Shown piece by piece: positions 30,201 to 36,916 of a stretch of DNA of 37,174 bases (positions within the stretch are counted from its first letter, which is position 1; each line of letters starts with the position of its first letter). Origin of the DNA: Candidatus Ornithospirochaeta stercorigallinarum (GTDB lineage Bacteria; Spirochaetota; Spirochaetia; Sphaerochaetales; Sphaerochaetaceae); assembly GCA_018711525.1 (NCBI GenBank), contig DVIF01000086.1, forward strand, positions 1 through 37,174, read 5' to 3'. The position numbers were made by a program, and so were the translations under genes. Under the pieces are notes generated by a model. That model was given only the letters and a program-made list of their open reading frames with translations. It was not told the DNA's origin and made no database searches.

Positions 30201-30274
30201 GGGGCTGTAGCTCACCTGGCTAGAGCGATTGAATGGCATTCAATAGGTAGTCGGTTCGATCCCGATCAGCTCCA
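30201..30274 (+). tRNA. tRNA-Ala (GGC)
   Basis: Acceptor stem GGGGCTG/CAGCTCC has the G3-U70 pair that identifies alanine tRNAs. The anticodon loop ATGGCAT gives anticodon GGC, D stem GCTC/GAGC and T arm GGTTCGATCC are regular, and the discriminator is A. CCA is not encoded. It borders the integrative element and is a plausible attachment site. Confidence 0.95.
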
Positions 30275-30281
30275 CTCAAAG

Positions 30282-30313
30282 CAACTCCCTCAAAGTCAGG
30301 GAGTTGTTTCGTT
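30282..30313 (+). terminator. Terminator of tRNA-Ala
   Basis: Perfect 9-bp stem CAACTCCCT/AGGGAGTTG with a 7-nt loop, followed by TTTCGTTT, 8 bp after the tRNA. Confidence 0.85.
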
Positions 30314-30328
30314 TACAAGGCAGAATCC

Positions 30329-30351
30329 CGTCAGTAATTCGCGTCAGTAAT
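30329..30351 (+). repeat. Short direct repeat near tRNA-Ala
   Basis: CGTCAGTAAT occurs at 30329-30338 and again at 30342-30351, a 13-bp period, between the tRNA terminator and the serine recombinase gene. It may be an arm-type or accessory binding site at the end of the element. Confidence 0.35.
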
Positions 30352-30424
30352 CCTGATATCACCTGATGTTTAATGGCCACTTCCGATTAAATCCGGTAGT
30401 AGTCCAACGACACACAAACGCCCA

Positions 30425-30976
30425 TTATTCACCCTTAAGCAACCTGTAGAACGTGGCATGGCTCAAGCCTAATCGCCTCTTTGCCTGGGTTGCGGTTATC
30501 TCTTTAGCTCTATAGAGCCTGATGACATAATCCCAGTCCGCTGGCTTCTCAATCGGCTTGCGCCCCTTGTACTTGCCTTCTGCTTTGGCGATAGCGATTC
30601 CTTCAGCCTGACGCTGGAGAGTACACTCTCGCTCAAACTGGGAAAGCCCAGCAAAGATTGTGAGCATGAGCTTGCCCTGTGGTGTTGTCGTATCGATGTT
30701 CTCTTTCAAAGAGACGAAAGACACTTTCTTCTCCTGTAGCTTATCGATGATGAAGAGAAGATTCTTTGTAGACCTGGCCAAGCGAGAATAGGACTCGACA
30801 ATCACAATGTCCCCTTCCCTCACAAAGTCCAGAAGTTCCTTCAGCTTCGGGCGATTCATATCTTTCCCTGAGATCTTCTCTTCGAAAACACGCTCCACTC
30901 CGTGTTGTCGGAGTGCTTCCTCCTGCCTTGCAGGATTCTGATCAGCAGTGCTGCCCCTGATATATCCGACTTTCAT
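30425..30976 (-). CDS. Serine recombinase, resolvase/invertase family
   Basis: A 183-residue small serine recombinase. The catalytic serine is S9 in GYIRGSTADQ, and the active-site arginines are R65 and R68 in YSRLARST. The dimer helix TPQGKLMLTIFAGLSQFERE lies near 100-120, and a C-terminal helix-turn-helix (ITATQAKRRLGLSHATFYRL, about 160-180) binds the site. Size and layout match Tn3-type resolvases and Pin-type invertases. GGAG lies 7 nt upstream of the start. In this element it may resolve multimers or cointegrates or invert DNA; a perfect palindrome at 31046-31063 is a candidate site. No transposase gene accompanies it. Confidence 0.92.
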   Translation of the reverse strand: MKVGYIRGSTADQNPARQEEALRQHGVERVFEEKISGKDMNRPKLKELLDFVREGDIVIVESYSRLARSTKNLLFIIDKLQEKKVSFVSLKENIDTTTPQGKLMLTIFAGLSQFERECTLQRQAEGIAIAKAEGKYKGRKPIEKPADWDYVIRLYRAKEITATQAKRRLGLSHATFYRLLKGE

Positions 30977-31045
30977 TCTTATTCTCCATATCTTTGAAGT
31001 AGACTCCAGTGATACTATCCCAGCTGTCTCACTGAAATACGTTGT

Positions 31046-31063
31046 TGATACAAAGCTGTATCA
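31046..31063. repeat. Perfect palindrome upstream of the serine recombinase gene
   Basis: TGATACA-AAGC-TGTATCA, 7-bp arms. A related half-site TGATACT lies at 31010-31016, 36 bp away. Position between the recombinase start and the preceding gene suits an operator or part of a res site. Confidence 0.45.
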
Positions 31064-31067
31064 GAAT

Positions 31068-31508
31068 TCAATCCCCATCCTTTTGAGACTGCGTAGAAGT
31101 CAATTCATCTATCAGTCTCTTCGATTCCCAGATGAAATCTTCATTCATGATCTTCTTGGTGGCAGCATAGAGAAAGGTATCGAGAGACTGTCTTGCTTCT
31201 TTGAGGAGGGCTCGGGCTTCCTTCTTCTCTTCTTCAGATAACGTCCTGGCCTTGCGCACGAGCAGTGCCGTATAGACCTCCTTGTTGAACGCTTGCATCA
31301 GTGTCAGATGATCGAGAACAGAAAACACAAGCTCCTCAAGATGTTCGACCCGCTTATCGACCCTCTCGATATCTTCGAAGGATGAATTGATCACTTCGCT
31401 GGTGACAGCAGAGATGGTGCTCTTGTTGATCACAGCCATCTTCTGGAGCTTCTCGTAGTTACCCACATCAAGGCGGACGGATATCACTTTCGTTCCTTCT
31501 TTGGCCAT
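31068..31508 (-). CDS. Small protein with ribbon-helix-helix-like N-terminus and coiled coil
   Basis: A 146-residue protein. The first 45 residues, with TKVISVRLDVGNYEKLQKMA and then a helix before SEVINSSF, look like a ribbon-helix-helix DNA-binding fold such as those of plasmid mobilisation and partition proteins. The rest is highly charged and helical (KRVEHLEELVFSVLDHL, LSEEEKKEARALLKEARQSL), probably a coiled coil. I cannot assign a family. GGAGG lies 7 nt before the start. A perfect inverted repeat about 105 bp upstream could be its binding site. No relaxase gene is visible in the window. Confidence 0.6.
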   Translation of the reverse strand: MAKEGTKVISVRLDVGNYEKLQKMAVINKSTISAVTSEVINSSFEDIERVDKRVEHLEELVFSVLDHLTLMQAFNKEVYTALLVRKARTLSEEEKKEARALLKEARQSLDTFLYAATKKIMNEDFIWESKRLIDELTSTQSQKDGD

Positions 31509-31613
31509 TTCGCTTCCTCCAAGAACTGTAATTTGGTGGGGTTTTCAGCACAGATGCCGCTACTAATTGAATTGTTATAATGAAAGGAATTATCGGAATG
31601 TGATTACAGCCCC

Positions 31614-31635
31614 TATTTATCTTGCCCGATAAATA
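31614..31635. repeat. Perfect 8-bp inverted repeat upstream of the RHH-like gene
   Basis: TATTTATC-TTGCCC-GATAAATA. It lies in the 193-bp gap between the two small element genes, upstream of the 31068-31508 gene. A candidate operator, partition or transfer site. Confidence 0.5.
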
Positions 31636-31701
31636 CACCTTCATATGACTGAGGCTTCCGGTAATTCAGAAGCCCCCAGTACTCAAAAGGTACGCTACAG
31701 A

Positions 31702-31992
31702 TCAGTAATAGTCTTTCTGAACATGTTTGCTGAGCTGTTTCACTTCTTCCATATTCTCTGGCAAAGCAAGCTCAAGCTTCCAGTCAATCAAGTCCTGGAC
31801 AATCCCGCTTGCAAGCCTGTCCAGCTTTCTGGCTTTCCTCCGCATCTCCCGCTTGCTCATCCTCCAGAAATCCTTTCTGACTGACTGTGACAGGGATTCC
31901 CATTTGTCAGCTTTATCCAAAGTGCTGATAATCTTTTCTTCCGTCTCTCCGGGAAGAATACCATTGAACAGATACTCGTTTTTGATCTCCAT
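31702..31992 (-). CDS. Small basic helical protein of unknown function
   Basis: A 96-residue soluble protein, predicted helical, with a strongly basic centre (RKDFWRMSKREMRRKARKLD, about 39-58) and an acidic end. I do not recognise the family. GGAG lies about 8 nt before the ATG, which supports expression. It stands directly downstream of the repeat and hairpin region at 32016-32238, and the 15-bp inverted repeat there ends only 24 bp before the start codon. A role in copy control or DNA binding near the origin is possible but not shown. Confidence 0.6.
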   Translation of the reverse strand: MEIKNEYLFNGILPGETEEKIISTLDKADKWESLSQSVRKDFWRMSKREMRRKARKLDRLASGIVQDLIDWKLELALPENMEEVKQLSKHVQKDYY

Positions 31993-32015
31993 TTCTTTGC
32001 TCCTTATTCATTCAA

Positions 32016-32069
32016 GGAGAGAAAAAGGGTTGCGTATTATTTTTGAGAAGCGCCACCCTTTTTCTCTCC
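32016..32069. repeat. Perfect 15-bp inverted repeat
   Basis: Arms GGAGAGAAAAAGGGT (32016-32030) and ACCCTTTTTCTCTCC (32055-32069) match at all 15 positions, with a 24-nt loop. It sits just upstream of the 31992-31702 gene and would form a strong hairpin in its leader RNA or in single-stranded DNA. No T-run follows on either strand beyond those in the arms. Confidence 0.85.
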
Positions 32070-32073
32070 GTAT

Positions 32074-32136
32074 GGAGGCTTCCATTAGGCGAGGGCTCCC
32101 AGGTGCTGAGCCTGCGCCGTTAAGATGGAAGGCTCC
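32074..32136. repeat. Long two-level stem-loop
   Basis: Outer arms GGAGGCTTCCAT (32074-32085) and ATGGAAGGCTCC (32125-32136) pair at 11 of 12 positions. Inside, GGCG..GGCT (32088-32097) pairs with AGCC..CGCC (32109-32118). The whole is a 63-nt foldback next to the 15-bp inverted repeat. Confidence 0.8.
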
Positions 32137-32146
32137 TATTTTGAAT

Positions 32147-32182
32147 AGTTAACCTTATTAGCCTGATTAACCTTATTAACCT
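32147..32182. repeat. Four A/T-rich 9-bp tandem repeats
   Basis: AGTTAACCT, TATTAGCCT, GATTAACCT and TATTAACCT run head to tail without gaps. Such short A/T-rich direct repeats are typical of DNA unwinding elements. In one minus-strand frame they encode repeated Arg-Leu-Ile, so a decayed coding repeat is the alternative. Confidence 0.75.
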
Positions 32183-32187
32183 AATTG

Positions 32188-32238
32188 AGTAACGTGAGCG
32201 TAACGAAACCGTTACGGAGGCGTTACGGCATCGTAACG
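32188..32238. repeat. Five GTWACG motifs phased at 11 bp
   Basis: GTAACG starts at 32189. CGTAACG starts at 32199, CGTTACG at 32210 and 32221, and CGTAACG at 32232; CGTTACG is the reverse complement of CGTAACG. Every step is exactly 11 bp when the first is aligned at 32188, so the motifs face one side of the helix. An 11-bp period does not fit codon repeats. Confidence 0.8.
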
Positions 32239-32244
32239 GACTCA

Positions 32245-32649
32245 TCACTCGATATATTCGAGAAGCACTTGAACCTCTGAATCAGGACGCTCAGGAAGCA
32301 ATCCGTATGACAGATTGGCAGCCTTCCTGCTAGTGGGAATTTTCAGAAGCTCCTTCTCTTTGATGTAGATGGTCTGGTGATAGAGGTCCTTCCGAATGAC
32401 GTTGTGATAAAGCCAGTCCGTTATCACGACGACGCCAGTGTTGAATGGAATCAGATACCGTTTGGATATCAGAATCCTCAGGTCGTCATCAGAAGCACCT
32501 GTGACCTTCATGACCCGGCGAGGAGTTATGAAACCGTCATCATCTGCCCTGACAGCCAGATCCACATATAGCATTCTGGCTGAAGTCGGCATCGAGAGGA
32601 ACTTGTCTGAATCGATTATCGACTTGGAAAGCATGCGTTTGTCGGCCAT
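32245..32649 (-). CDS. Phage replisome-organiser-like N-terminal domain protein, probably truncated
   Basis: A 134-residue protein resembling the N-terminal winged-helix domain of phage replisome organisers: MADKRMLSKSIIDSDKFLSM, then LYVDLAVRADDDGFITPRRV, GASDDDLRILISKRYLIPFN, and a WLYHNVIRKDLYHQTIY segment (each a stock piece of the family). Full-length relatives continue with a low-complexity linker and a DnaD-like domain. Here the frame stops, but the next frame runs on for about 44 codons (VTVSLRSRYSIRLIRLIRLI) before its own stop, which suggests a frameshift in the linker. AGGGGG lies 7 nt upstream of the start. It begins 1 bp after the excisionase stop. Likely role: starting replication at the adjacent repeats. 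Confidence 0.7.
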   Translation of the reverse strand: MADKRMLSKSIIDSDKFLSMPTSARMLYVDLAVRADDDGFITPRRVMKVTGASDDDLRILISKRYLIPFNTGVVVITDWLYHNVIRKDLYHQTIYIKEKELLKIPTSRKAANLSYGLLPERPDSEVQVLLEYIE

Positions 32650-32650
32650 A

Positions 32651-32866
32651 TCAGATACCCCCTGAAATCAGCTGAGCCTCATAGCCCTTGCTGTTGTCCG
32701 GATCCGTGGAACAGAGCTTCACATAGTCTTCAAGATCCGAGTCCAGAATGTAGACACGGCCTCCGAACTTGCGCCCTGTGAGTTTCTTCTTGTAGATCTC
32801 CCTGCGAAGCACAGGAACAGAGATGCCAAGCTTCGCAGCCGCTTCATAAATGGAATAAGTAGTCAT
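32651..32866 (-). CDS. Excisionase-like helix-turn-helix protein
   Basis: A 71-residue protein with a MerR/excisionase-type winged helix: YSIYEAAAKLGISVPVLRRE then KLTGRKFGGRVYILDSDLED, the standard HTH_17 layout covering residues 4-50. It starts inside the integrase stop codon (ATGA, 32863-32866). Excisionases bend DNA at attachment sites and favour excision by the integrase; the direct coupling to the integrase gene supports that role. It could also be a small repressor. It is followed after 1 bp by the replisome-organiser-like gene. Confidence 0.8.
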   Translation of the reverse strand: MTTYSIYEAAAKLGISVPVLRREIYKKKLTGRKFGGRVYILDSDLEDYVKLCSTDPDNSKGYEAQLISGGI

Positions 32867-34149
32867 ACGCTACACCTCCTCATGGTCCTTGAGGGCTTCT
32901 TGTATTTCTGAGCCAGGTCAAGAATGTCATGTGACTTGAACCAAGCGACAGATTCTTCGTCAAAGAGCACTTTCTGAGCATCCAGAATCTTCTGATAGTG
33001 GATTGGGAGAACCTGGAAATAGTGCTCAAGGGCAACGTTCTCGCTAGTCCAGCCGAGTATTCCACGACGGATATCACTTGAGAGCGTTCCAGTCATCATC
33101 GAGTTGAACATCTTCCTCAGTGAGTGGAAGTCGATTCCTGCGGCCTGAACTGCTTCAGGTGAGGTTCCCATGACCTCAGCAAGTTCGTTGCGGAAATGTT
33201 CGAGATTCTTATCGATTGAGATAGGTTTCTTGCCTTGAGTGTTTGAAAAGCAGAGATCCGTATTGCTGAGCAGAAAGACAGGTTGGATGAACTCATATAC
33301 CCAGCGAGGGAGAACAGTCAGCCGTTCACGGCCATTCTTAGGGCTTTTCTCCACATTCCTGTTTGTCAGGCTATGGCGGATATGAAGCACAACACAGTCT
33401 TCGATGCCCTCATGTCCATAGTAGGTTTCAAAGTCATTCTTCTTGAGGGCCCTGATCTCTGAGACACGCATACCGGTGAAGAAACAGACCATGGCCACAG
33501 CATGGTTGATTGGATTCTTCCACCCTTTTAGAAGCATCTTGCGATAATCCTGGATGTTGCCCGGGATACGGTTCTTTCTGGGCTTGGGACGGGCCATCTT
33601 GAATGTTGAATCAAATGGGGTGCGCAGCATCCAGCCGACCTCAACGCAATAGTTGAAAAACTCCTTGGCTTCATCGATGCAGTAATGTACAGACCTATCG
33701 GATAGTCCCTTTTTCTGCAGATTGAGCTTGTATGCGGTGACATCCTCGACCGCCAATGATGATAGTCGCTTTTTCCCGAGATACGGAATCAAGTGATTCC
33801 TGAAGCGAGCAGACACCTGTTCTATTGAATGAACCTGACATGTCTCACTCCGCCCCGTCTCCCTTCTTTTGATGAAGATCTCGCAAGCCTGAGCAACTGT
33901 GACGGGAACCTCTGACACCTTCTCTTTCTGTTCTGGCGTCATTGCCAGAGTCCTCATGTAATTGTCAAAGAGCTCTCTGGCAATAATTCCTGCATCATTA
34001 CGGCTAGCATGAAAAATAATCCTTTTGAATCCATATGCGTAATGATCGTCACGTATAGAGAGAATGTAGGAATCCTTCCCTCTTTTGTCCTTCGTAAAGA
34101 AATAAGACTCTTCTTTGCGTGGTCGTGCCATGATAACTCCAGTATTCAT
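32863..34149 (-). CDS. Tyrosine recombinase (phage/ICE-type integrase)
   Basis: A 428-residue site-specific recombinase. An N-terminal arm-binding region (7-60) and a SAM-like core-binding domain (about 82-175) precede the catalytic domain. Catalytic residues are R228 (TGMRVSEI), a lysine near 268-271, H342 and R345 (FHSLRKMF), W367 (LGWTSENVALEHY, in place of the more usual His) and the nucleophile Y377. Two starts each have GGAG at 5 nt: ATG 34149 and ATG 34131; I use the longer. Integrase, excisionase and replication-like genes form one coupled operon. Its likely attachment site is tRNA-Ala, 2.6 kb beyond its 3' end. Confidence 0.92.
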   Translation of the reverse strand: MNTGVIMARPRKEESYFFTKDKRGKDSYILSIRDDHYAYGFKRIIFHASRNDAGIIARELFDNYMRTLAMTPEQKEKVSEVPVTVAQACEIFIKRRETGRSETCQVHSIEQVSARFRNHLIPYLGKKRLSSLAVEDVTAYKLNLQKKGLSDRSVHYCIDEAKEFFNYCVEVGWMLRTPFDSTFKMARPKPRKNRIPGNIQDYRKMLLKGWKNPINHAVAMVCFFTGMRVSEIRALKKNDFETYYGHEGIEDCVVLHIRHSLTNRNVEKSPKNGRERLTVLPRWVYEFIQPVFLLSNTDLCFSNTQGKKPISIDKNLEHFRNELAEVMGTSPEAVQAAGIDFHSLRKMFNSMMTGTLSSDIRRGILGWTSENVALEHYFQVLPIHYQKILDAQKVLFDEESVAWFKSHDILDLAQKYKKPSRTMRRCSV

Positions 34150-34217
34150 TTCAACTCCTTTAGTATCAGGGTTGATTTACAAATACAAAACTAATGCATG
34201 TGCTGCAAGCTGTCAAT

Positions 34218-34294
34218 ACAGAACCATATATTGTGGAGTTATTTTGAATTTCTCTTTTGAAAACAGAACCGTATATTAAGGTGTCTTTTTGAAA
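34218..34294. promoter_or_regulatory. Two direct repeats between integrase and HTH regulator, candidate operators
   Basis: Two 31-bp copies at 34218-34248 and 34264-34294, 46 bp apart, agree at 25 positions. Both begin ACAGAACC, continue [A/G]TATATT and end TTTTGAA. Each contains a CC-N9-GG near-palindrome and a TATATT that could be a -10 box. They lie in the gap between divergent genes, as expected for a lysogeny-type switch. Confidence 0.65.
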
Positions 34295-34345
34295 ATGAGG
34301 TTCTTTTTTCTTCTCTTTTTTTCCAAAAGTGTGCAAACTTATTTT

Positions 34346-35416
34346 ATGGGAATTGCAACGGATTTTCCAAAACTTGCAGCAGATACAATCCTCAACAGAA
34401 TCGACAAGCAGCGTGAATTCTTACATTTATCGCGCAATGATGTTGCATCTGTTGCAGGAATCAATCAGCTATCTTTCATCAACAACTTCAAGAAGCACAA
34501 GATTCCAAAATTCAATGACCTTTACAGAATCTCGAATGCTCTCGGTATCACATTTGATACTCTGGTTGCAGAAAAGGAACCGGAATATCTTACTGACAAG
34601 AATAATGTCATCTATTGGACGACACTGACAGAAAAAGATACTTTGCCAAACAGTCAGCTTATGCAGAATTCCGACAAGAATGCAATTGTCAGAGCATTCA
34701 ACTCACTCTCTGAAGGACTTGATGCCGGTAACTTGATTAGGAATCCCGAGACAGCTGGCACTTCCGATGAATACAGATTCTGTATTTTTTATGAGTTCCT
34801 GCGTGCAGAAGAAGTTGATGGGCTCTTTCTGATGAGCGAAATCATTCATGTTCTTAATAAGGCATTTGGAGTGGAGGACTTCCAGATATCAACATTCAGT
34901 CTACAAATGGCTTTTTATGAAATGGCAAACAGCCTTTGGCTCCACTCATACCTTCCTGTAGCTTCAATCTGGCAAACAATTGACGATAAGATTTCCTCCA
35001 GATATGACTTTAAAAGCAATTTCTACAAAGATTCAGGCATCAGCAGCAGGTCTTATTCTGAATATCAGGATGCCACGACAACAATGGCTAGTCCTTCCAC
35101 TGATACGATGCTGAAGATACTGAAACTTCTCGATATTGATAACGTCGATGAAGCTATAAGATCTAGAATTCCGGAGACATTTGATGCTCCTTCATTAAGC
35201 AACATCAGTTTCTATGTGAACTACGAACCCATGACTAATGAAACACTGAAGGCAACCCTCAAGACCGTTCCATCTCTTGCTCAGTTCATGAACGGGATTT
35301 TCTCTCTGGGTTTCAAGGATCTTGCAAGGATAAAAAATCTGACAGATGCTGCTGTCAGAAACCCATACAGCAATTTCAACTCCGATAGATCAACAGCTAC
35401 ACGTACCTCAGACTAA
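34346..35416 (+). CDS. XRE/Cro-C1-type helix-turn-helix regulator of the element
   Basis: About 356 residues from ATG 34346. The N-terminal domain has ILNRIDKQREFLHLSRNDVA then SVAGINQLSFINNFKKHKIP and LYRISNALGITFDTL, a Cro/C1-type HTH. A second similar segment, YQDATTTMASPSTDTMLKIL, lies in the middle (around 250-270 from this start), so it may hold two HTH domains. The centre and C-terminus match no family I know. No Shine-Dalgarno precedes this ATG; an upstream TTG near 34289 has AAGGTG in front but would add an odd Phe-rich leader. It diverges from the integrase across paired repeats, which suggests that it controls integrase expression. Confidence 0.7.
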   Translation: MGIATDFPKLAADTILNRIDKQREFLHLSRNDVASVAGINQLSFINNFKKHKIPKFNDLYRISNALGITFDTLVAEKEPEYLTDKNNVIYWTTLTEKDTLPNSQLMQNSDKNAIVRAFNSLSEGLDAGNLIRNPETAGTSDEYRFCIFYEFLRAEEVDGLFLMSEIIHVLNKAFGVEDFQISTFSLQMAFYEMANSLWLHSYLPVASIWQTIDDKISSRYDFKSNFYKDSGISSRSYSEYQDATTTMASPSTDTMLKILKLLDIDNVDEAIRSRIPETFDAPSLSNISFYVNYEPMTNETLKATLKTVPSLAQFMNGIFSLGFKDLARIKNLTDAAVRNPYSNFNSDRSTATRTSD

Positions 35417-35506
35417 GAGCATGAGCCCATATCCACAACGGAGCAGGGAGATAAAGCAGAGCGGATATGTAGGAAGGAATAAAACATTGGCAATAGCCGT
35501 CTACCA

Positions 35507-36916
35507 TCAAACCACTTCCCAGTGGCCATCCTTATCGCTTCCGACTCTTCTGACAACACCTGCTTCACTTAGGCTCTTGAGATAATTCGCTACTGAAGCT
35601 CTTGATATGTTGAACATCTTACTGAGAGTCTCATATGTACATGAAGGATTCTCTTTAAGAACTCCTACAATCTGAATCTTGATTTCAGCACGAGATAGCC
35701 TCTCTGTGCTTTTCGGTCCAGAATCAGATTTAGACTGTAAGTTAGACTGTAAATCCTCGTTGGAATCAATTTTAGACTGTAACTTAGACTGTAAATCGGC
35801 AGATTCTTCATTTTTAGACTGTAAATCATCTTCAAAGCCTGGAACAAATCTGAATACAACCTTGATCATGTCATCATGTATCTCAAAGATGCTCTTGTCA
35901 TAATACTGAAGGATCCTGTTCATGCCGGATCCTAGTTGCTCCACCATTTCAACATCATGGAAGATTCTCATGATTTCCCTATTTCGAGGACGGCTCACGC
36001 CGGAGAAGAAGCGCTCTACAGTCATCCCATCAGGAAGACCTCCATGCGATGTAAGCTCAAGTCTGTCGGAATACACCTCCACAACAGGTGTATAACCTCG
36101 GCTGTAATCGTTGTGGACAAGCATGTTGATTAGAGCCTCCCTTGCTGGAATCGGTTCAAACATCTTCCTTTCAAGCCTTAGCTTCGGAGTTATCTTTGTC
36201 CATGTTCTGTTCTCTACGAGGAGACGGTCAGCAAGTCTGTGCGCCGTTGTAATAAGACAGTTGAAACCGTACTCAGAGCTCTCTACAAGCTCACACTTGT
36301 CAATTCCTGCATACCTGGCGAACTTGAATGTCAGATGATTGTTGTCCGCCATCAGATAGGCAACGAAGTTGTACTTTCCTTCAGGGGTGAGGAAATCAAG
36401 AGTCTCGGCAAAATTGTCATTGAGTGGATGCTTCTTCTCGCTGTAATAGATCTTCAGCTGTTCAAATTTCAAATTCTGGCTTGGGGCTATGATTGTGGCC
36501 AATGTCGTAGGCACCCTTTGGGCGTACATCTCCCTGATCATTCGCTCAGGCATCGGACGACATGAGGAACCTACCCTGTAATAACACCCCTTCGAGCTCA
36601 TCCCGTACTTTGCGATGTAATATGGTCTATCCGATCCAGCAGAGACAATTACCTTCACAAGATGTTTGCCTCCCTCTGTAGCTTCAACTTCGATATCGAA
36701 GAGACCAAGGCATGATGAATGCACATTTTCAGACAGTCGCTGCGCGATACGTTTCTGAACATCATCAGGATCAGGAACTCCATAGACGGTGCCATCATTG
36801 GCCAAGCCGAAGACAAGCTCTCCTCCAAATGTATTCAGAAAGGAAACGACCTCCCTCTCAAGGCCATCAACGTCTTTTGTAAGTTCCCTCTTATATTCAA
36901 TAACTCTTCCTTCCAT
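35507..36916 (-). CDS. AlbA_2/Schlafen-type ATP-binding protein with repeat linker and winged helix
   Basis: A 469-residue protein. The N-terminal AlbA_2 domain (about 1-120) has VIEYKRELTKDVDGLEREVV then SFLNTFGGELVFGLANDG, the family's core. The C-terminal part of the ATPase-like module contains REALINMLVHNDYSRG and LGSGMNRIL (around 255-340), typical of the HATPase_c_4 type. A linker at about 365-400 repeats DLQSK/LQSK five times. A winged-helix domain (TYETLSKMFNISRASVANYL, about 430-465) ends the protein. Such proteins are thought to be regulators or defence-related, but roles are unproven. AGGA lies 8 nt upstream of the start. Confidence 0.85.
   Translation of the reverse strand: MEGRVIEYKRELTKDVDGLEREVVSFLNTFGGELVFGLANDGTVYGVPDPDDVQKRIAQRLSENVHSSCLGLFDIEVEATEGGKHLVKVIVSAGSDRPYYIAKYGMSSKGCYYRVGSSCRPMPERMIREMYAQRVPTTLATIIAPSQNLKFEQLKIYYSEKKHPLNDNFAETLDFLTPEGKYNFVAYLMADNNHLTFKFARYAGIDKCELVESSEYGFNCLITTAHRLADRLLVENRTWTKITPKLRLERKMFEPIPAREALINMLVHNDYSRGYTPVVEVYSDRLELTSHGGLPDGMTVERFFSGVSRPRNREIMRIFHDVEMVEQLGSGMNRILQYYDKSIFEIHDDMIKVVFRFVPGFEDDLQSKNEESADLQSKLQSKIDSNEDLQSNLQSKSDSGPKSTERLSRAEIKIQIVGVLKENPSCTYETLSKMFNISRASVANYLKSLSEAGVVRRVGSDKDGHWEVV
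35730..35824. repeat. Five copies of TTAGACTGTAA inside the AlbA_2 gene
   Basis: Copies start at 35730, 35742, 35772, 35784 and 35814, steps of 12, 30, 12 and 30 bp. All steps are multiples of three, so repeat number can change without shifting the frame. On the coding strand they encode LQSK. Confidence 0.85.

Follow-up and report, generated by a model that had tools for sequence, protein, structure and literature searches.

Phased iterons, A/T-rich repeats and a conserved hairpin beside a short rep gene: a putative replication origin in a spirochaetal integrative island

The window, that is, the whole stretch of 37,174 nucleotides that was analysed, carries an island next to a tRNA gene. 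The following features were assigned (names such as G042 denote genomes of relatives):

30201–30275, plus strand: tRNA-Ala(GGC), where the element is proposed to have inserted
30425–30976, minus strand: serine recombinase of the resolvase/invertase type
31068–31508, minus strand: ORF146, no assigned function; conserved like the backbone, unmatched in G042
31702–31992, minus strand: ORF96, no assigned function; diverges along with rep and the array between relatives, no match in G042
32016–32069, no strand assigned: long inverted repeat GGAGAGAAAAAGGG...CCCTTTTTCTCTCC, kept in relatives, possibly a two-way terminator
32074–32136, plus strand as drawn, strand of action uncertain: hairpin with a 12-13-bp stem, an asymmetric internal loop (A / GUUAA on the plus strand), a GGC/GCC stem and a variable terminal stem
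32148–32183, no strand assigned: four gapless 9-mers, of the type AGGTTAATA on the minus strand; proposed unwinding element
32188–32238, no strand assigned: iteron array of five 7-bp near-palindromic cores, (A/C)GTWACG, at 11-bp steps (32188, 32199, 32210, 32221 and 32232)
32245–32649, minus strand: rep, encoding a 134-aa winged-helix protein that corresponds to the N-terminal domain of replisome organisers and lacks the C-terminal part present in its homologues; proposed to bind the iterons as initiator
32651–32866, minus strand: xis, encoding a 71-aa HTH_17 excisionase-like protein
32863–34149, minus strand: int, encoding a tyrosine integrase

The gene set of a phage satellite (PICI-like) is present: the chromosomal island, at a fixed att site, carries int, a regulator, rep and ori. 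The tRNA-Ala(GGC) gene adjoins the element in four loci (the window, G058, G018 and G095:C7), and the window reaches its end before any second att site. G058 belongs to another genus, and its copy shares 98% identity across 6.7 kb but is flanked differently; therefore, the element moves.

Direct reading placed the cores of the array at 32189–32194 (GTAACG), 32199–32205 (CGTAACG), 32210–32216 and 32221–32227 (both CGTTACG) and 32232–32238 (CGTAACG); in the first slot, position 32188 is A and not C. The array ends (32238) some 6-7 bp from the stop-codon boundary of rep (32245). Since the cores face both ways (++--+) and no two of the 4-bp spacers are alike, we regard the array as a set of conserved sites and not as a recent tandem duplication. 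The motif CGTWACG occurs four times in the window, every time in the array, and GTWACGN4CGTWACG had no second site in the 1.93-Mb draft genome (reversed control pattern: 0). The longest chain of GTWAC at step 11 had five members in the window versus one in each of 60 Markov-1 simulated windows. The 9-mers read GTTAACCTT, ATTAGCCTG, ATTAACCTT and ATTAACCTA, the second with G in place of A; positions 32140–32188 are 73% A+T, and a stability computation showed that the 9-mer block falls within the least stable DNA of the 3.9-kb core (30276–34200). Direct reading and simulated windows thus bear out the preliminary description of this DNA, which had reported five GTWACG motifs at exact 11-bp phasing beside four A/T-rich 9-mers.

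The replisome-organiser-like gene that had been noticed beside the array could be assigned to a family: its product matched PHROG 8489 and PHROG 5708 ('DnaD-like helicase loader') with E-values of 1e-46 and 8e-44, the match being limited to the first ~107 of 296 and 263 positions, respectively. It is 42% identical to Rep of Tuc2009 and 36% identical to ORF11 of r1t. Its phage relatives comprise replication initiators and replisome organisers from phages of streptococci and lactococci, together with proteins from streptococcal satellite phages. The AlphaFold model is a winged helix (pLDDT 87). We found no C-terminal domain in the window Rep, and a search for a helicase-loader (DnaC/DnaI-type) gene near rep in the islands, the window included, found none. 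No Pfam family matched at E ≤ 0.1, RepA_N (PF06970) included, and there was no match among PDB sequences. With its winged-helix N-domain proposed to act on iterons, Rep resembles the RepA_N initiators (pSK41, pTZ2162 and the RepA of V. cholerae PLE), but it has no sequence match to them, and its structural score stays at the generic winged-helix level: the best Foldseek matches (5kbj, 4pt7, 4pql; E 0.04-0.3, Z ~5) were level with other winged helices, and in a second structural comparison (VIA-align) no family stood clearly above them. In pSK41 the ori lies inside rep (PMC5703833), and the iterons of PLE1 are longer semi-palindromes of ~30 bp (PMC8263062).

The same arrangement of sites is found within the phage genes. 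The Tuc2009 rep gene has four iterons (~GNCAACC) at 11-bp steps followed by AGGTTAGGTAAGG, and ORF11 of r1t has four iterons (TGGAACC) at 11-bp steps followed by AGATTAGATAAG, these being AGGTTA/AGATTA repeats. The database record of Tuc2009 rep is annotated 'contains origin of replication', and according to a 2022 summary the Reps of Tuc2009 and TP901-1 bind direct repeats within their own genes, these repeats being the ori (PMC8965321). The kinship with the Tuc2009/TP901-1 group that had been proposed at first holds for Tuc2009, and for r1t as well, but apparently not for TP901-1, whose REP seems to be another protein and has no 11-bp array.

To follow the phasing through the family, we pooled 70 dereplicated Rep homologue loci and compared the autocorrelation of the DNA just after the N-domain with codon-shuffled controls. 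Autocorrelation peaked at 11, 22 and 33 bp (z = 13.8, 10.2 and 5.6), the next largest z being 2.8. This pooled measure was used instead of an earlier chain test against codon shuffles, in which 23 of 79 single viral loci exceeded the controls and which is underpowered for 4-site arrays. In the longer-Rep homologues, chains with an 11-bp step lie directly after the N-domain and are translated through as coding sequence. The preliminary description had held that intact coding sequence in homologues would speak against an origin; the idea nevertheless stands, because the array in the phages is coding and still 11-bp phased. The cores vary by element (GGATAC, GACAAC, GGAACC, GGAAAC, GACGTC, TGTCAG, GTATCC and others), and one Rep from a viral contig has nine CGTNAC cores, the same core type as in the window, inside its ORF at exactly 11 bp. 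AGGTTA-type repeats usually follow the iterons, and a block of the AGGTTAGGTAAGGATAGG type follows the array in 59 of 72 homologue loci. The peptide QVRLGKDRLGKDR, common in phage Reps (L083, L085, L103, L106, L128 and others), is the read-through of the A/T-rich AGGTTAGGTAAGG block, and is thus apparently dictated by an origin.

The window therefore shares with a Tuc2009/r1t-type origin the homologous initiator N-domain, the iterons at 11-bp steps right after the N-domain coding region and the A/T-rich AGGTTA-type repeats behind them, spaced at 9 bp here versus 5/10 bp; the 9-mer block is the counterpart of the AGGTTAGGTAAGG block. It differs in its iteron core and in that the phage array is embedded in the rep coding sequence with the C-terminal part behind it, whereas rep of the window stops just before the array. 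Because the same layout lies inside rep of Tuc2009 and r1t, the array and the 9-mers are most simply the same origin, and since the window Rep stops short, without the C-terminal part, this origin lies outside the gene. We conclude that positions 32074–32238 are very probably the replication origin of a small integrative island (probability about 0.86), and homology to the Tuc2009/r1t layout thus supports the first proposal of an origin with iterons and an unwinding region.

In the mechanism that we propose, Rep, encoded alongside, would bind the 7-bp cores, one per helical turn, and form a regular filament, the strain of which would pass to the adjacent A/T-rich AGGTTA repeats and melt them; both the binding and the melting are inferred. 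Helicase loading in the phage relatives would fall to the C-terminal part of Rep together with a separate gene of the DnaC/DnaI type. Such a gene lies directly after rep in the phage and satellite relatives examined, was seen beside rep in Javan16, Javan595, Javan64 and Javan195, and is described for r1t (PMC8965321). Neither was found in the island; relative to Tuc2009 and r1t, it has a hairpin and an inverted repeat added. The hairpin just past the melted stretch, once single-stranded, may be the assembly site for the host primosome or primase.

The hairpin and the inverted repeat (32016–32136), which like the missing C-terminal part of Rep were absent from the preliminary description, are conserved among relatives. 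The integrase is shared at at least ~68-69% identity by eight islands in seven genomes, and in all eight islands found with this integrase it is accompanied by a short Rep, phased iterons and a hairpin. Every short-Rep relative has an asymmetric hairpin and a long inverted repeat beyond the A/T block. In lineage A, all five islands have the hairpin in the gap that separates the A/T block from the next gene; its sequence ATCTTWACGGC...TCGCCTAAT and its asymmetric loop are retained, and an inverted repeat whose arms are AGAGAAAAAGG comes after it. The hairpin of lineage B is unrelated in sequence and has a two-part stem with a strongly asymmetric internal loop, and beyond it stands the long inverted repeat GAGTGGAAAAATG...CATTTTTCCACTC; the short-Rep loci of this lineage (L023, L024, L026 and L027, from G095 twice, G024 and G039) keep the same order with the other hairpin and the other inverted repeat. 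Twelve pairs of the hairpin are altered on both sides, which none of 500 shuffles reached, in an alignment of seven rows, two of which are Clostridia look-alikes that account for part of this covariation. By position and covarying fold, which speak to structure and not by themselves to function, a structured single strand adjoining the opened region of the origin, as in ssi/PAS sites, appears to be present. Strong downstream folds also occurred in 2 of 46 long-Rep loci, in a comparison for which the short-Rep windows were picked after the hairpins had been seen.

Models of the lineage-A hairpin found no match beside the long-Rep loci tested and only the known islands across 393 genomes of the phylum; a pattern scan of viral contigs gave no hit, nor did a comparison of 31990–32250 with plasmid and phage DNA collections. 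In Rfam, neither the origin nor the Clostridia hairpin had a meaningful match, and the inverted repeat matched only microRNA-type models, below their gathering scores. The inverted repeat has a G+C-rich stem with A5 before and T5 after it, like a two-way intrinsic terminator with a long loop, and its role may be to shield the origin from the gene that follows. We also considered the hairpin as an IS200/REP-type repeat and rejected this: Y1 transposases are found in most of these genomes, but nothing links them to the hairpin, and the hairpin occurs once per spirochaete genome. The same loop sequences, TTAGGCGA...GAGCCGTTAAGAT, recur in a hairpin that a Clostridia MAG has in 11 dispersed, partly tandem copies, often near tRNA genes (L054 5653-5720 and 5819-5883), and also in a few relatives (G216, G220, G232 and G233; L055-L069), by kinship to the island hairpin or by convergence.

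The role of the hairpin as a primosome or priming site is the least certain step of our proposal, a tentative assignment that we consider somewhat short of an even chance. As no C-terminal domain and no neighbouring helicase-loader gene were found, the hairpin is proposed as the replacement for the loader. A possible functional parallel, by layout, is ssiA of pAMbeta1 (Inc18), where the origin lies directly downstream of rep and this single-strand initiation site downstream of the origin; RepE of that plasmid binds a single 25-bp site (PMC5703833). Alternatively, the array and the A/T block may be the origin while the hairpin acts as RNA, as a regulatory or antisense transcript or as a terminator, a substantial though minority possibility. 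The wobble pairs of lineage A are G-U on the plus strand and never on the other, the plus strand folds better (-34 versus -28 kcal/mol), and the similar Clostridia hairpins are dispersed repeats, all of which would fit an RNA. However, no promoter above the chance number precedes the hairpin, lineage B has a wobble on the other strand, and in both of its unrelated sequence forms the hairpin always separates the A/T block from the next gene.

If the hairpin is a priming site, the island family may have replaced the helicase-loading part (a protein domain and a loader gene) by an origin hairpin at least twice, with unrelated hairpin sequences in the same layout of phased iterons, A/T repeats, asymmetric hairpin and inverted repeat, while swapping origin cassettes between islands; we put this forward as a possibility, with less than even confidence.

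A hairpin with A/T-rich repeats would also fit the oriT of an island mobilised by a borrowed relaxase, the array serving accessory proteins, and no capsid or packaging genes of the island were found in the window. We consider this improbable: the array and the A/T block match a phage replication origin, and the relaxase family PF03432, the one family searched for, in genomes that are incomplete, was absent from seven of the eight carrier genomes.

Comparison of the islands indicates which protein reads the array. The window and G018 are mostly 84-98% identical, but only 52-73% across ~31626–32675, which covers ORF96, the hairpin region, the array and rep; by gene, int is 96%, xis 93%, ORF146 94% and the resolvase 93% identical, and rep 57%. 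The array after rep of G018 consists of eight GTNAC sites, mostly at 12-bp steps, that of G007 of nine YGTWAC-type sites at exactly 11 bp, and that of G042 of about ten slots at an 11-bp step with a different core (GTATCC/GGATAC). In lineage B (G095, G039), xis is 91-93% identical, rep is distant (27%), and CTGGAA sites at 12-bp steps lie behind its stop codon. At the level of sequence, these comparisons demonstrate that relatives swap rep and array as a cassette; an exchange of repA and ori as a module was shown experimentally for PLE in Vibrio (PMC8263062). Because the array travels with rep, we infer that it is read by Rep and by none of Int, Xis and ORF146. It is not evident what determines specificity, since the Rep N-domain of G042 is 78% identical to that of the window despite its quite different iteron core. 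The G042 rep gene (L014; G042:C4, 41605-41962) has a frame change after about residue 73, with array and hairpin intact; an assembly error and a decayed copy would look alike here.

This exchange also bears on two other readings of the array. Excisionases bind short phased repeats and xis lies two genes away, so the array might be an operator or arm-site array for Xis or Int that controls excision or the int-xis-rep operon. We regard this as very improbable: the array comes after the operon, relatives with another core, another step or both in their arrays still show 91-93% identity in Xis and 68-96% in Int, and the same kind of array lies inside rep in phages. A partition-type centromere such as parC of plasmid R1, whose 11-bp iterons are bound by a small ribbon-helix-helix-like protein, has a similar step, and ORF146 would be the binding protein, its N-terminus being ribbon-helix-helix-like by eye with profile support only from phrog_876 (E 0.005), but this is most improbable, as no ParA/ParM-like gene was seen, G018 combines a changed array with an ORF146 at 94% identity, and G042 has its 11-bp slots without an ORF146 match.

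Under the origin reading, spacing was largely retained in the homologues while sequence was not: the 11-bp step is kept although the cores differ, but G018 and lineage B use 12 bp. The earlier claim that the initiator binds one face of the DNA was for this reason too strong to be general. As both steps exceed 10.5 bp, a Rep filament would wind around or underwind the DNA and not sit on one face. What marks the origin in this initiator family appears to be the spacing of the sites, roughly one for each helical turn (11 or 12 bp), rather than a fixed sequence, in coding and non-coding arrays alike. With such a rule, the sequence by itself could reveal origins in phages and islands that lack annotation. 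The short-Rep islands take the Tuc2009-type origin system beyond Firmicutes phages into spirochaete islands with restriction systems. New here are the conserved asymmetric hairpin and long inverted repeat of the short-Rep islands, a layout repeated in a second, sequence-unrelated lineage. With one small DNA-binding protein and ~165 bp of DNA, these islands are a minimal setting for studying how replication starts when the initiator lacks a helicase-loading part.

The variable end of the island (34289–36916 in the window; L038; L039 7580-8584; L071) has a divergent HTH regulator and changing cargo: a Schlafen/AlbA_2 protein in the window, genes resembling type I restriction-modification in G058, a likely cytosine methyltransferase in G007, and a methyltransferase-like gene, an MvaI/BcnI-type endonuclease and an ankyrin protein in G095.
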